DNA from: Gluconacetobacter takamatsuzukensis
Lineage (GTDB): Bacteria; Pseudomonadota; Alphaproteobacteria; Acetobacterales; Acetobacteraceae
Assembly: GCF_014174275.1 (NCBI RefSeq)
Contig: NZ_JABEQK010000003.1
Span: 310,001-374,000, forward strand
Length of the DNA stretch: 64,000 nt
Reading direction: 5' to 3'
Under the pieces are notes generated by a model. It saw only the letters and a program-made list of their open reading frames with translations, did no database searches and was not told where the DNA came from. This document shows positions 41,675 to 46,505 of this stretch, piece by piece. The first letter of the stretch is position 1. The number at the start of each line of letters is the position of its first letter. Position numbers and translations under genes: made by a program.

Positions 41675-43114
41675 ATGGGAAGCCCGATCGAAACGCTGAT
41701 CCGCGAAACGGTGACCAGGGGCATCGAAGCCCTCGCCGCCCACAACCGCAAACGCATGCCCCGGCACGCCAACCCGTTCCTGACCGGCATCCATGCCCCG
41801 ATGACCGAGGAACGGACACTGACCGAACTCCCGGTCACGGGCACGATCCCCGCCGGGCTCAACGGACGCTACCTGCGCATCGGCCCCAACCCGATAGCGC
41901 CCGATCCGGCCTCCTATCACTGGTTCACCGGCGACGGCATGGTCCACGGGCTCGCAATCGCCGATGGCCGCGCATTGTGGTACCGCAATCGCTGGATCCG
42001 CTCGAACGCCGTCGCCAGGGCACGCGGCGTCGTCCCCGCACCGGGGCCACGCCACGTCTTCGATACGGTCAACACCAATGTCGTCGATATCGGCGGTCGC
42101 ACCTTCGCGCTGGTCGAGGCCGGCAGCTACCCGGTCGAACTGGGCGAAACGCTCGACGACCAGCGCTACAATCCGTTCGACGGCTCGCTGAAAGGCTCCT
42201 TCAGCGCACACCCCCACCGCGATCCGAAAACCGGAGAACAGCACGCGATCTGTTACGAGGGCCGCGATCCCGGCACCATCCGCCACGTCGTGGTCGACGC
42301 AGCCGGGCGCGTGATCCGCGAGGAACCGGTCGCGGTAAAGCACGGCCCGATGATCCATGATTGCGCGCTTACCGACCGTTTCGTCATCATCCTCGACCTG
42401 CCCGTGACATTTTCGATGAAGGCCCTGGTCGCAGGCCACGGCTTCCCCTATCGCTGGAACCCCGCACACCCGGCGCGCGTCGGGCTGCTGCCACGCCATG
42501 GCGGGCAGGACGACATCATCTGGTGCCCGGTGGCGCCCGGATACGCCTTCCATGTCGCCAACGCCCACGATGCGGACGACGGAAGCGTTATCCTCGATCT
42601 CTGTGTCTACGACACGATGTTCGGCGACGGCGCACAGGGCCCGGACGCAAGATCGCGCGGGCTTGAACGCTGGACCATCGACCCCGCCGGCCGCATGGTC
42701 GCCATCCGCACGCTCGACGCCGCACCGCAGGAATTCCCCCGCCCCGACGAACGCTTCTTCGGCCGCCCCTCCCGCCATGTCTGGAGCCTCGCCCTGCCGG
42801 CCGACCCGGCCAACCGCTTCATCGGCGCAACGGCGCTCTACGCGCACGACCTCGTAACAGGCGAACGGCAGGTCCACGATTTCGGCCCCAACCGCCACCC
42901 CGGCGAATTCGTCTTCGTGCCCGAGACCCCCGACAGCCCCGAAGGGCATGGCTGGCTGATCGGCTTCGTCATCGACATGGCGAGCGAAACGACCGACCTC
43001 GTCATCCTCGACGCCCGCCGGTTTTCCGAGCCGCCGGTCGCCGGCATCCGCCTGCCGCACCGCGTGCCGCCGGGCTTCCACGGCAACTGGATCGCCGGAG
43101 GCAGCACCCCATGA
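41675..43114 (+). CDS. Carotenoid cleavage oxygenase (RPE65/lignostilbene dioxygenase family)
   Basis: Non-heme Fe2+ dioxygenase that cleaves carotenoids, apocarotenoids or stilbene-type C=C bonds. All four iron-binding histidines are in place: [10 protein letters not shown] (His179), [10 protein letters not shown] (His228), [10 protein letters not shown] (His293) and PPGFHGNW (His469). Also present are [12 protein letters not shown] and [12 protein letters not shown] near the start. Length 479 is standard for bacterial members. ATG 41675 follows GGAGG. Its stop overlaps the next start (ATGA), so the operon is translationally coupled. Substrate cannot be told; no carotenoid biosynthesis genes are in the window. 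Confidence 0.93.
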
Positions 43115-43887
43115 ACAGCCTGCGCCCGCGCATCCCCGGCCTGGCACTCCTGGCACTCGACCTCGCGGTGAATTTCGCCGCCCCCGCGCTGATCTACGAC
43201 CGGATGCAGGCGGCTTGGGGCGATGTCGATGCACTTCTGGCCTCGTCCATGCCCCCGCTCCTGTGGAGCATCGGCGGCTTCCTGCGCAACCGGCGGGTCG
43301 ATGCGCTGTCCCTCCTTTCCCTGGCCGGCATCGCCCTCTCCCTGCTCGCCTTCCTGGGCGGCGGCTCCGCGCGGATGCTGGAACTGCGCGAGAAAATGGT
43401 CACCTTCCTGATCGGCCTGGCCTTCCTCGGCTCGGCGGCAATCGGCAAACCGCTGGTCGCCGCCCTGGCACGCGCAACCGTGGCCCGGGAATCCGCCCAG
43501 GCCCTCGCCGATTTCGACGCGCACCGCAACACCCCCGGCATGCGGCGCGCCATCATGGTCATGACACTGGTATGGGGCGCCGGCCTGCTGGCAGACGTGG
43601 CGGTCTCGGTCGTGCTCATCTACAGCCTGCCGATCGCCACCTATCTCGTGGTCGGCCCGATCCTCGGCTACGTCACGATGGGCGGGCTGGCACTCTGGAC
43701 CGTGGCCTATCGGCGCTACCGAATGCACTACCGCGCCCCAGGCCCCCCCCGGCCACGCACCAGGACCAGGTGGACCGACCGGAATCCTCGCCCGACCGGG
43801 ACATTTTTCAAACAGCATCTTAACGATTCGCTAATACTTGAAAGGGAGCCTGACAGACCCCCGTCCGCCACTGGAACCGCCCGATGA
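43111..43887 (+). CDS. VC0807-like integral membrane protein
   Basis: A 258-residue protein with six hydrophobic segments in the first ~210 residues, then a polar proline/arginine-rich tail. The start [19 protein letters not shown] and the [22 protein letters not shown] loop-helix match the VC0807 family of unknown function, often found beside transcription regulators or oxidoreductases. It overlaps the oxygenase stop by ATGA (43111) and the next gene's start by ATGA (43884). It may help deliver or retain a hydrophobic substrate for the oxygenase, but that is speculation. Confidence 0.8.
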
Positions 43888-45299
43888 TCAGGATCGACGC
43901 CATACAGCCGGACTCGGTCCCCATCTCCTTTCCCGGCGCCGAGAGCGACCGGCCGAAAGCCGGCGGCGCCTCGCCCAGCGGCGGCAACCGCTCCGGCAGC
44001 AACGCCGCAGCCCCCGGCGACGGCGATACCGTCACCCTGTCGGCGGAAGCCCTCGCCGCCCTGGCCGTCCTGTCGTCCGAGACGACGGAAGACCCGCAAG
44101 CCCTCCAGGACACTCCCCTGCCGCCCGAGATGCAACCGGCCGACGCCGAAGATGCCCCACCCGATCCGACGAACCAGATCCCCTCGGCCATCATCGACGC
44201 CGCGCAAGCCGACATGGAGGCTGCCGTTCTCACCATGGGCGCCAATGAAGGAATGCCCACCCCGGCCATCTGGGGCCGCGCCTACGAACGCACCCTGATG
44301 TCGGCCCCCGATCACGCCGCCCCAACCCCCGCTCAGACCAGAACCGCCCCCCCTCCCGGCCCGGGCCAAACGGATTCCGCAACCCCCGACACAGCGGAGA
44401 ACACGATCCTCGCGAACGATGTGGAAAGAGCCCTCACCGAACGCCTGCTCAACAGCGGACTGGATGACGATCCGGGCACCCACTTTCTGGCCGGTCGCCC
44501 CACCGACCACGCCGGCAACAGGCCCCAGACCGTTACCGACCCGATGGTGCCCGATCTCTCCCACGATCTGACCGGGTCGACCGATCCCGAATCCATCGCC
44601 CAGAACGTCCAGAATCTCCCCCAGGTCGATGAACGGATGGTCGCGATGTATGCCCCTCCCATGGGCAACCGCCCAATCCGGGAGCCCGCACCGGAGATCG
44701 ACGACACCGACCCACCGCCGGAACCCACCGGCCGGGTCACGGGTGCCCTTCTCGACGCGGTCGCCGCATGGCAGGGGCGCCGGCTGAACGCGCTCTATCC
44801 CGTGATCTTCTTCGACACGCTACAGGTCAAGGTCCGCGACGACAGCATCGTCCGCGACAAGCCCGTGCACGTCGTGCGCGGGATGCACCTCGACGGCACC
44901 ATGGACATGCTCGGCCTGTGGCTCGAACGGCACCAGACTACCGGCTTCGGGCGCCATATCATGGATGCGCTGAAGCGCCGGGGCATGGAAGATATCCTGA
45001 TGGCCGTTGCCGAGGGGGCAGACGGCATTCCCGCCGCCATCCACGCGGCCTTCCCCCAGGCGCTGGTCCATCCTTCGATCGCGCACCTGCTGCATCATCT
45101 GCCAAACGTCATGGCCGTGACCGACCGCGTCGCCATGGCCGACAGCCCATGGGGCCAGATGCTCCAATCGGCCGCCCATACGATCGCTGCGTCGAATGCG
45201 ATGCTCGGCCGCGCCATCCAGGCCCGAGGCTATTTCGCCAACGACCAGGCCGCGCTGGCCTTTCTCTACCTGACCTTGAACAGCGCCCGGGCGTCCTGA
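43884..45299 (+). CDS. Degenerate IS256/Mutator transposase-derived protein with novel N-terminal region
   Basis: A 471-residue intact reading frame. Residues 1-175 are Pro/Ala/Asp-rich and unrecognised (with VTLSAEALAALA near 51). From about residue 178 to the end it follows an IS256-family transposase: VERALTERLL, DHAGNRPQTVTD, a VDERMVAMYAPPM segment (248-260), VTGALLDAVAAWQ (285-297), LYPVIFFDTLQVKVRD (first catalytic Asp, 311), LGLWLERHQ, ILMAVAEGADG (family Asp replaced by Glu377), and the C-terminal RAIQARGYFANDQAALAFLYL. The ~100-residue insertion domain is missing and the catalytic Glu region (TTNAIEALN in active enzymes) is degenerate (AASNAML). It should be transposition-dead but conserved as a protein. 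It is coupled to the upstream membrane protein by ATGA. Confidence 0.75.
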   Translation: MIRIDAIQPDSVPISFPGAESDRPKAGGASPSGGNRSGSNAAAPGDGDTVTLSAEALAALAVLSSETTEDPQALQDTPLPPEMQPADAEDAPPDPTNQIPSAIIDAAQADMEAAVLTMGANEGMPTPAIWGRAYERTLMSAPDHAAPTPAQTRTAPPPGPGQTDSATPDTAENTILANDVERALTERLLNSGLDDDPGTHFLAGRPTDHAGNRPQTVTDPMVPDLSHDLTGSTDPESIAQNVQNLPQVDERMVAMYAPPMGNRPIREPAPEIDDTDPPPEPTGRVTGALLDAVAAWQGRRLNALYPVIFFDTLQVKVRDDSIVRDKPVHVVRGMHLDGTMDMLGLWLERHQTTGFGRHIMDALKRRGMEDILMAVAEGADGIPAAIHAAFPQALVHPSIAHLLHHLPNVMAVTDRVAMADSPWGQMLQSAAHTIAASNAMLGRAIQARGYFANDQAALAFLYLTLNSARAS

Positions 45300-45411: not shown

Positions 45412-45549
45412 TTACATGCGCACCAGGGCCAGACCGTAGAACACGGCTGCCAGACCCAGCAGCGTAAAGGCCACACCAAGCAGCCGGCCACGATGGCGGC
45501 GCACGCATTCGCGGGCCTGGTCGGGCGTCAGGGCAAGCGGTTGATCCAT
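45412..45549 (-). CDS. CoxF-like small membrane protein, 45 aa
   Basis: A 45-codon gene with a strong ribosome site (GAGGAGG six bases before ATG 45549) overlapping the ctaB stop. The protein is a polar N-terminus (ALTPDQARECVRRHRGR) followed by one transmembrane helix (LLGVAFTLLGLAAVFYGLALV). A single-pass protein directly after ctaB matches the CoxF type that accompanies oxidase assembly genes in other alphaproteobacteria. The open frame extends upstream within ctaB but lacks coding character there. Confidence 0.75.
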   Translation of the reverse strand: MDQPLALTPDQARECVRRHRGRLLGVAFTLLGLAAVFYGLALVRM

Positions 45550-45560
45550 CACCGGCCTCC

Positions 45561-46505
45561 TCAGCCCATGACCAGGAAATGATCGGCCAGCAGGCCGCAG
45601 AACAGCAGGAACAGATAAAGCAGCGAGAAGCGGAACGCCCGCCGCGCCGCGCCATCGCCCGTCAGGCTCACGCCGGTCGCATCCTGCCGGTCCCTCAGCA
45701 CGCGCACGGCACAGCCCACGAAGCCGGCATCCAGCAGCATCGCGGTGGCGGAATACAGCCAGCCCGCCTGATGCAGCACCGACGGCACCAGCGATACCGC
45801 CGAGAGGATCAGCGTATAGATCAGGATCTGCCAGCGCGTATGCCGTGCCCCGCGCACCACCGGCAGCATCGGAATCCCGGCCCGCCCGTAATCCTTGCAG
45901 GCATATAGCGACAGCGACCAGAAATGCGGCGGCGTCCACAGGAACACGATCGCGAACATCACGACGGGCATCACATCCAGCGATCCCGTCGCCGCCGCCC
46001 AACCGATCATGGGCGGAAAGGCCCCGGCCGCCCCACCGATCACGATGTTCTGCGGCGTCGAGCGCTTCAGCCACATCGTATAGATCACGGCATAGAAGAA
46101 GATGGAAAAGGCCAGGATAAACGCCGCCAGCGCATTGGTCGCCAGCCACATCAGCAGCACCGAGGCCGTCGACAGGCCGATGCCGAACCCCAGCGCCTGA
46201 TCCTGGCGAATCCGCCCATCGGGGATCGGGCGGCGCGCGGTCCGGGTCATGATCGCGTCGATATCGCGATCGTACCACATGTTGATCGCCCCCGCCGCAC
46301 CCGACGCCATGCAGATGCACAGGATGGCAACGCACGCCACCACCGGGTTCAGGTGGCCCGGCGCCATGGCCATGCCGGCCGCACCGGTAAACACTACCAG
46401 CGAAATCACGCGCGGCTTCAGCAGCGCGAACCAGTCACGGGCCTCGGTCCCGACCAGCGCCGCGTCGAAACGCGGCGCCTCCGGTGCGGCGGCGCGGGCG
46501 CTCAT
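45561..46505 (-). CDS. ctaB: Protoheme IX farnesyltransferase (heme O synthase)
   Basis: Integral membrane prenyltransferase that adds a hydroxyethylfarnesyl group to heme B, producing heme O for terminal oxidases. The UbiA-fold active-site motif is clear in NMWYDRDIDAIMTRTARRP (Asp-rich, about residues 75-93) after the LKPRVISLVVFTGAAGM helix, and a second Asp-rich region follows the IPMLPVVRGARHTR loop. Length 314 is typical. Its ATG (46505) overlaps the stop of the oxidase-like gene upstream (ATGA), and a CoxF-like gene follows. The same product would be needed for cytochrome bo3-type ubiquinol oxidase encoded elsewhere. Confidence 0.95.
   Translation of the reverse strand: MSARAAAPEAPRFDAALVGTEARDWFALLKPRVISLVVFTGAAGMAMAPGHLNPVVACVAILCICMASGAAGAINMWYDRDIDAIMTRTARRPIPDGRIRQDQALGFGIGLSTASVLLMWLATNALAAFILAFSIFFYAVIYTMWLKRSTPQNIVIGGAAGAFPPMIGWAAATGSLDVMPVVMFAIVFLWTPPHFWSLSLYACKDYGRAGIPMLPVVRGARHTRWQILIYTLILSAVSLVPSVLHQAGWLYSATAMLLDAGFVGCAVRVLRDRQDATGVSLTGDGAARRAFRFSLLYLFLLFCGLLADHFLVMG

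Follow-up and report, generated by a model that had tools for sequence, protein, structure and literature searches.

What is a reading frame that resembles an IS256/Mutator transposase doing, open and intact, among the host genes of Gluconacetobacter takamatsuzukensis? The frame, which we call TPN, occupies positions 43884-45299 (+ strand) of the window, that is, the whole 64,000-nt stretch of contig NZ_JABEQK010000003.1 that was analysed. An ORF check of the window found all of its 471 codons open, as the original prediction had stated. That prediction, made from the sequence of the window, read TPN as a domesticated transposase with a new N-terminal region inside a regulated operon. Our results support the domesticated-transposase reading and revise both of the other elements. 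On the combined evidence of the ORF, orthologues in seven species and dN/dS, we describe TPN as a putative domesticated fusion of a host gene with a transposase gene.

Two genes precede TPN on the same strand. The first encodes an apo-carotenoid cleaving dioxygenase of the CCD/RPE65 family (hereafter CCD; 41675-43114, +; NF052295, E=5e-244) and the second a VC0807 family protein (43111-43887, +; NF041646, E=3e-49, and synteny). Downstream, the heme o synthase gene ctaB (45561-46505, −; TIGR01473) is the convergent neighbour and served as synteny anchor. TPN has a composition like that of its neighbours (GC3 of 0.83-0.84). VC0807 and TPN share the ATGA overlap from which it had been argued that TPN is maintained; the overlap is real but not conserved, being present in the window genome only, whereas a gap of about 70-105 bp separates the two genes in the orthologues measured. 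It exists because the C-terminus of VC0807 is ∼40 residues longer in the window genome (258 aa versus 217-219 aa in relatives), and positions 43760-43887 are coding in VC0807 here and intergenic in relatives. The proposed regulation of the operon is putative at most: upstream of CCD we found one promoter-like site, against 0.5 expected by chance. No terminator was found by consensus in the interval between TPN and ctaB (fold z=-1.4). A small reading frame in the same interval (45412-45560, −) resembles a small single-helix protein of cytochrome oxidase operons.

The resemblance to IS256 transposases, originally placed at residues ∼178-471, was readily confirmed. Residues 228-410 gave a strong match to Pfam PF00872 (Transposase_mut; E=1.1e-31, 110.6 bits against a gathering cut-off of 21), and the NCBIfam model transpos_IS256 matched at 1e-31, but with 110 bits versus a curated equivalog cut-off of 150. 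Residues ∼174-468 aligned at ∼44% identity with intact 408-aa IS256 transposases encoded within the genus. The sole close relative with a solved structure was the ISCth4 transposase (6xg8), with E=4e-29 by sequence and 7e-38 with the orthologue profile. Judged from these sequence comparisons, the homology of the TPN core to IS256/Mutator transposases lies far above chance.

We also modelled the protein with AlphaFold (AF2), using an 8-row alignment that included active IS256 transposases. The mean pLDDT of the model was 50; residues 290-470 mostly reached 75-84, and nearly all others stayed below 40. The best PDB match of the model was again the ISCth4 transposase (6xgx, E=1e-14). An RNase H-like fold is therefore predicted with moderate confidence, the first part of the core, whose fold would be kept, corresponding to residues 303-413 (44790-45122, +; pLDDT mostly 75-84). 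Because the alignment contained IS256 transposases, this prediction is supportive rather than an independent proof. A predicted helix at residues 174-190 (44403-44453, +) aligns with the second, leucine-rich helix of the dimerisation domain of IS256 and is absent from the orthologue of one genome of the genus, G009.

The fold may have outlived the active site. Catalytic residues were located with the ISCth4 domain map, which gives the boundaries of its helix-turn-helix (HTH) domain and the catalytic residues D175, D241 and E348 (PMC7780238), and were compared in the window gene, G. asukensis, G. dulcium, G. tumulicola, G001, G. liquefaciens and G009, in that order. At the first aspartate (D311 in TPN; 44814-44816, +) the residues are D/D/E/D/D/D/T, the exceptions being the E of G. 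dulcium and the T of G009. At the second (E377; 45012-45014, +) they are E/D/D/D/E/D/D, with D in five orthologues and E here and in G001. At the glutamate (A435; 45186-45188, +) they are A/K/K/K/K/K/E, with K in five orthologues and E only in G009. Thus, the alignment bears out both the replacement of the second aspartate by Glu377 and the degeneration of the glutamate region that had been read from the window. At least one residue of the triad has been lost in each copy, and which one varies. Also, the cysteine of the CxxH motif is serine in all seven copies, giving SxxH in six (S398xxH401 in the window gene) and SxxD in one.

Larger losses accompany these substitutions. Alignments place the site of ∼50 missing residues of the alpha-helical insertion domain at residues 415-430 (45126-45173, +), and the spacing between the second aspartate and the glutamate is 58 in TPN versus 107 in ISCth4 (D241-E348, PMC7780238). 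The domain had been reported as gone over ∼100 residues; the loss is real but about 50 residues in size, and part of the CxxH region persists as SxxH. Compared with the intact IS256 transposases of the genus, ∼36 residues are missing at the C-terminus of TPN. All seven orthologues lack the C-terminus and the bulk of the insertion domain. As for the ends of the element, we read the terminal inverted repeats (TIRs) of a related element from five copies (GGGCCTATCCTGAATTTCGTGTG / GGGACTGTCAGGAATTTCGTGTG). Their 12-nt core was unmatched near TPN at ≤2 mismatches and occurred window-wide at about chance level, in agreement with the terminal repeats having been reported as absent, and no convincing inverted repeat pair brackets TPN. 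The gene is single-copy, with no other relative in its own genome at E≤0.01. By all these comparisons TPN appears to be without the features of an active IS256-family element, terminal inverted repeats and a target duplication included.

A still active, divergent transposase working on distant non-autonomous elements would be compatible with the second aspartate and the glutamate kept in G009 and with the two aspartates kept in several other orthologues. We consider this reading extremely improbable, since a full triad occurs in no copy, the CxxH cysteine is lost in all of them together with most of the insertion domain, no ends lie nearby, and each genome holds a single full-length copy at a fixed site. 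Taken together, TPN shares with ISCth4 TnpA (IS256 family; 6xg8/6xgw/6xgx) the RNase H-like core, the order of elements and 23-44% identity over residues 174-468. Unlike it, TPN has no DDE triad, carries SxxH for CxxH, lacks the C-terminus and the larger part of the insertion domain, and shows a broken HTH, a foreign N-terminus, no TIRs and a fixed locus.

If TPN no longer cuts DNA, it might still bind it. A degenerate remnant of the HTH domain was delimited at residues 241-298 (44604-44777, +) by alignments and by the HTH boundaries of ISCth4 (PMC7780238). Mutation of four IS256 residues (Y, G, T and R) abolishes or significantly reduces DNA binding (cited in PMC7780238). Two of the four, Y256 and R263, are invariant in the TPN orthologues, while the G has become P/A/L and the T has become N/S/R. 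In the YARGM motif the R-G pair is replaced by P258 and P/A/L259, with Y256 and R263 retained. These positions bear on the main rival to our reading, namely that TPN is a catalytically dead regulator that binds a DNA site through its remnant N-terminal domains and either represses its own operon or activates it, much as TldR acts on flagellin. TPN does lie downstream of CCD-VC0807, and Y256 and R263 correspond to Y120 and R127, which contact DNA in ISCth4 (PMC7780238). On the other hand, the changed positions are the equivalents of G123 and T126, needed for IS256 DNA binding; the HTH has acquired prolines, TPN has no counterpart of the PRDR segment that belongs to the N-terminal DNA-binding domain, and residues 190-280 are modelled with pLDDT below 40; and no TIR-like site is left near TPN. 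We therefore regard a regulator of this kind as unlikely, if a serious contender. TldR proteins are regulators derived from nuclease-dead TnpB (PMC13418256), and TPN resembles them in being a transposon protein that has a dead active site and is still kept next to genes of the host; unlike TldR, whose parent TnpB is an RNA-guided nuclease, TPN has an eroded DNA-binding domain in which Y256 and R263 stay invariant. Overall, TPN appears to have kept the RNase H-like fold while its catalytic function and a large part of its DNA-binding region eroded.

The region preceding the transposase part had been taken as new. A profile of TPN residues 1-173, searched against 398 genomes of the family, found a set of proteins that we call family H, with E-values from 2.5e-13 to 2e-4. 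H proteins have ∼316-375 residues (open frames of 327-403) and are encoded at other loci in G001 (two), in G009 and in two further genera. They are annotated as hypothetical in Komagataeibacter (WP_118963714.1) and on Azospirillum plasmids. TPN and H align colinearly, starting at the first Met and passing through GDTVTLSxEAxxALA as far as TLMSxxDR, and hhalign of the TPN N-terminus against H gave E=3.1e-12 over columns 1-152. The N-terminal region with homology to H comprises residues 1-150 (43884-44333, +; mostly predicted disordered, pLDDT <40). Within it, the motif GDTVTLSxEAxxALAxLSxE at residues 47-66 (44022-44081, +) is common to TPN and H, with invariant columns and a predicted helix at residues 54-65. 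TLMSAPD at residues 137-143 (44292-44312, +) matches TLMSxLDR of H and is the last clear H-derived block in the alignments. The fusion joint would thus fall between residues ∼143-150 and ∼174. TPN resembles H in its first ∼150 residues and differs from it in lacking a counterpart of the ∼190 further conserved residues of H.

This match might instead reflect convergence between disordered, Ala/Pro-rich N-termini that share a short motif, with the TPN extension arising de novo. The TPN N-terminus is indeed low-complexity and predicted to be disordered, and against the H profile the window sequence alone scores 24 bits and that of G009 13 bits. However, the match runs colinearly over ∼150 residues from the initiator Met and comprises several separate blocks, GDTVTLSxEA and TLMSxxDR among them. 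Real H proteins scored 19-51 bits, versus at most 7.8 bits in 2100 H copies with residues 1-170 shuffled, and the reciprocal search concurred, the H profile giving 24-33 bits in five orthologues while shuffles reached at most 7.0. Furthermore, the DNA pattern of the GDTVTLS motif occurs within the genus only in TPN and H genes. Convergence is accordingly improbable. Because residues 1-150 are homologous to H and residues ∼174-468 to IS256, TPN would be the N-terminus of H fused to an IS256 transposase, and its N-terminal region, contrary to the original prediction, would not have arisen de novo.

H itself is patchily distributed in the Acetobacteraceae (L097 6453-7469, L098 5438-6454, L072 2792-3808 and L099-L102); Azospirillum plasmids carry more distant relatives, and a class-wide search found H in 2 of 384 other genomes. 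Its neighbourhoods differ in each genome. At L097, L098 and L072 H is followed by a second protein, which carries a VTLSQTG motif, and inspection by eye showed an encapsulin-like ORF in L097 and a C39-peptidase ABC-type ORF in L098. No C-terminal remnant of H was found downstream of TPN, nor any H gene at the non-carrier loci. PHROGs returned transposase matches and one weak match of unknown function, with no H family. The way in which the N-terminus begins, together with its VTLSxxA motif (TPN 44022-44081 and the H N-termini), resembles the N-terminus of FlgM, but a FlgM-like anti-sigma N-terminus was set aside, as neither TPN residues 1-173 nor H matched any Pfam or NCBIfam model at E≤1.

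We then ask how widely the fusion is shared. TPN orthologues occur in 7 of the 14 genomes of the genus Gluconacetobacter, one full-length copy in each; carriers with species names include G. asukensis, G. dulcium, G. tumulicola and G. liquefaciens. The order CCD, VC0807, TPN and convergent ctaB is conserved in all seven, which are the seven species of one clade, so that these are full-length, in-frame syntenic genes at a fixed site and not the scattered, frameshifted fragments that would have refuted the original prediction. Neither TPN nor CCD was present in any of the seven non-carrier genomes. There, ctaB has 86-89% identity, compared with 94-97% in carriers (none was found in the incomplete G012), and it has other neighbours in the non-carriers examined. 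The unrooted topology of the TPN tree equals that of the CCD tree. Since all carriers share the neighbours, the unrooted tree matches that of CCD and no non-carrier has the fusion, a single ancestral origin is indicated. CCD and TPN co-occur in exactly the same genomes (window genome, G001, G002, G006, G008, G009 and G010), probably because the clade ancestor had both. G013 is without CCD and yet carries a VC0807 gene with 54% identity.

The orthologues are not uniform. That of G009 is one ORF of 428 codons, matched in two pieces, from which further segments have been lost. Apart from an in-frame TAG at codon 30, the G. asukensis orthologue (L043 8001-9455) reads open to its usual end. The TAG could be a recent loss, a sign of an alternative start or a sequencing error; as a loss, it would indicate that TPN can be lost, either whole or in its N-terminal part. 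Outside the genus, a 314-aa IS256 protein of another Acetobacteraceae genus (G231, L064 6786-7730) retains the Glu, is without an H portion and is encoded at another locus, which makes it an IS deletion derivative and not a TPN orthologue. It has lost the insertion domain independently and in frame with the Glu region kept, a convergent internal deletion derivative. A match in G038 was a truncated IS. No relative of the fusion was found in viral contigs, and the plasmid matches listed were ordinary IS256 transposases, none of the 3358 records covering 80% of the TPN query.

Because the orthologues have their deletions and the fusion in common, their ancestor already had the present form, and the dN/dS of TPN therefore postdates domestication. 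GY94 estimates of dN/dS were 0.19-0.45, with likelihood ratio statistics of 14-138 versus omega=1, in 21 of 21 pairs. By part, omega was 0.16-0.43 for residues 174-471 and 0.20-0.65 for residues 1-173, where the test for values below 1 lacks significance in one pair, asukensis-G001. As a control, the same alignments were read in the other five frames and gave omega above 1; the exception was the antisense frame with mirrored third positions, at 0.27-0.57 and interrupted by 5-13 stops. The annotated frame is thus the sole frame both low in omega and stop-free. Pairwise gaps in the orthologue alignments were multiples of three in 132 of 149 cases. These results are in line with the original view that TPN is maintained as a protein, one of the seven orthologues having an early stop, and point to purifying selection on TPN after domestication. 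In addition, 14 columns are fixed in the seven TPN orthologues at a residue that differs from the one fixed in eight IS256 transposases (P258, H396, S398 and H404 are examples), which suggests new constraints.

A slowly decaying, functionless transposon fossil, its reading frame kept open partly by high GC, would account for some of these features. TPN is the fastest-evolving of the genes compared (median omega of 0.29, versus 0.07 for CCD, 0.17 for VC0807 and 0.03 for ctaB), and both the premature stop of G. asukensis and the additional losses of G009 would fit decay. Against it stand dN/dS values significantly below 1 in every pair over a divergence that postdates domestication, indels that stay in frame, the confinement of low omega and openness to the annotated frame, and the retention of the gene in all members of the clade. 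We judge a fossil to be very improbable.

The reading that we prefer, and hold to be very likely, is that TPN is a host-transposase fusion born in the ancestor of the clade, which lost catalysis and whose RNase H-like fold has been selected. The homology of both halves, the synteny, the loss of catalytic residues and the selection are observed; the order of events we infer as follows. An in-frame junction would have formed, in the common ancestor of a single Gluconacetobacter clade, between the opening ∼150 codons of an H gene and a gene for an IS256-family transposase next to CCD-VC0807. The element would then have shed its ends, its C-terminal tail and the greater part of its insertion domain, with the loss of one or more catalytic residues in every lineage, while purifying selection preserved the RNase H-like fold. 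As for its mode of action, we tentatively infer that TPN may serve as a non-enzymatic adaptor, a proposal for which the chances seem to us somewhat short of even. The protein would have given up cutting and joining DNA, and its RNase H-like core would be a folded, possibly dimeric, binding platform from which the flexible H-derived tail, through its conserved GDTVTLSxEAxxALAxLSxE motif, could dock a partner. By position alone, such an adaptor or modulator would plausibly be tied to the VC0807 protein and the apo-carotenoid dioxygenase.

Vertebrate host-transposase fusions, formed by transposase capture, usually capture the DNA-binding domain of the transposase, by splicing. Like them, TPN joins a host part to a transposase part and appears to be retained by selection; unlike them, it is bacterial, keeps the half with the catalytic fold and would have arisen without splicing. 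Plant FAR1/FHY3 are exapted Mutator-superfamily transposases that act as DNA-binding transcription factors; TPN likewise derives from a Mutator-type transposase and differs in having its DNA-binding region eroded. Among bacteria, RAYTs are HUH (Y1) enzymes that retain catalysis and act on REP sequences. TnpA-REP (RAYT) has been described as the first domesticated transposase of prokaryotes (PMC8266576), and TPN parallels it in being derived from a transposase and retained by bacteria as one copy that is not part of an IS; unlike it, TPN is a DDE derivative without the catalytic triad, and a fusion. In the literature searched, whose scope excluded subscription journals and preprints, no case of an IS256-type or fusion domestication in bacteria was found.

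Few genes in nature are as abundant as those for transposases, yet well-documented domestications of bacterial DDE transposases are scarce. TPN is probably, we think with some reserve, the first documented bacterial fusion of a host protein with a DDE transposase, in which an H tail and a dead IS256 transposase would make up a conserved, non-enzymatic protein with an RNase H fold and fixed residues of its own at an apo-carotenoid dioxygenase locus. Fusing the front of a host protein to a dead transposase would represent a rarely documented route to a new bacterial gene. Since relatives of both parents, the clade of origin and fusion-free relatives are all identifiable, the steps that led from insertion to new gene should be open to reconstruction and to testing in culture-collection strains.
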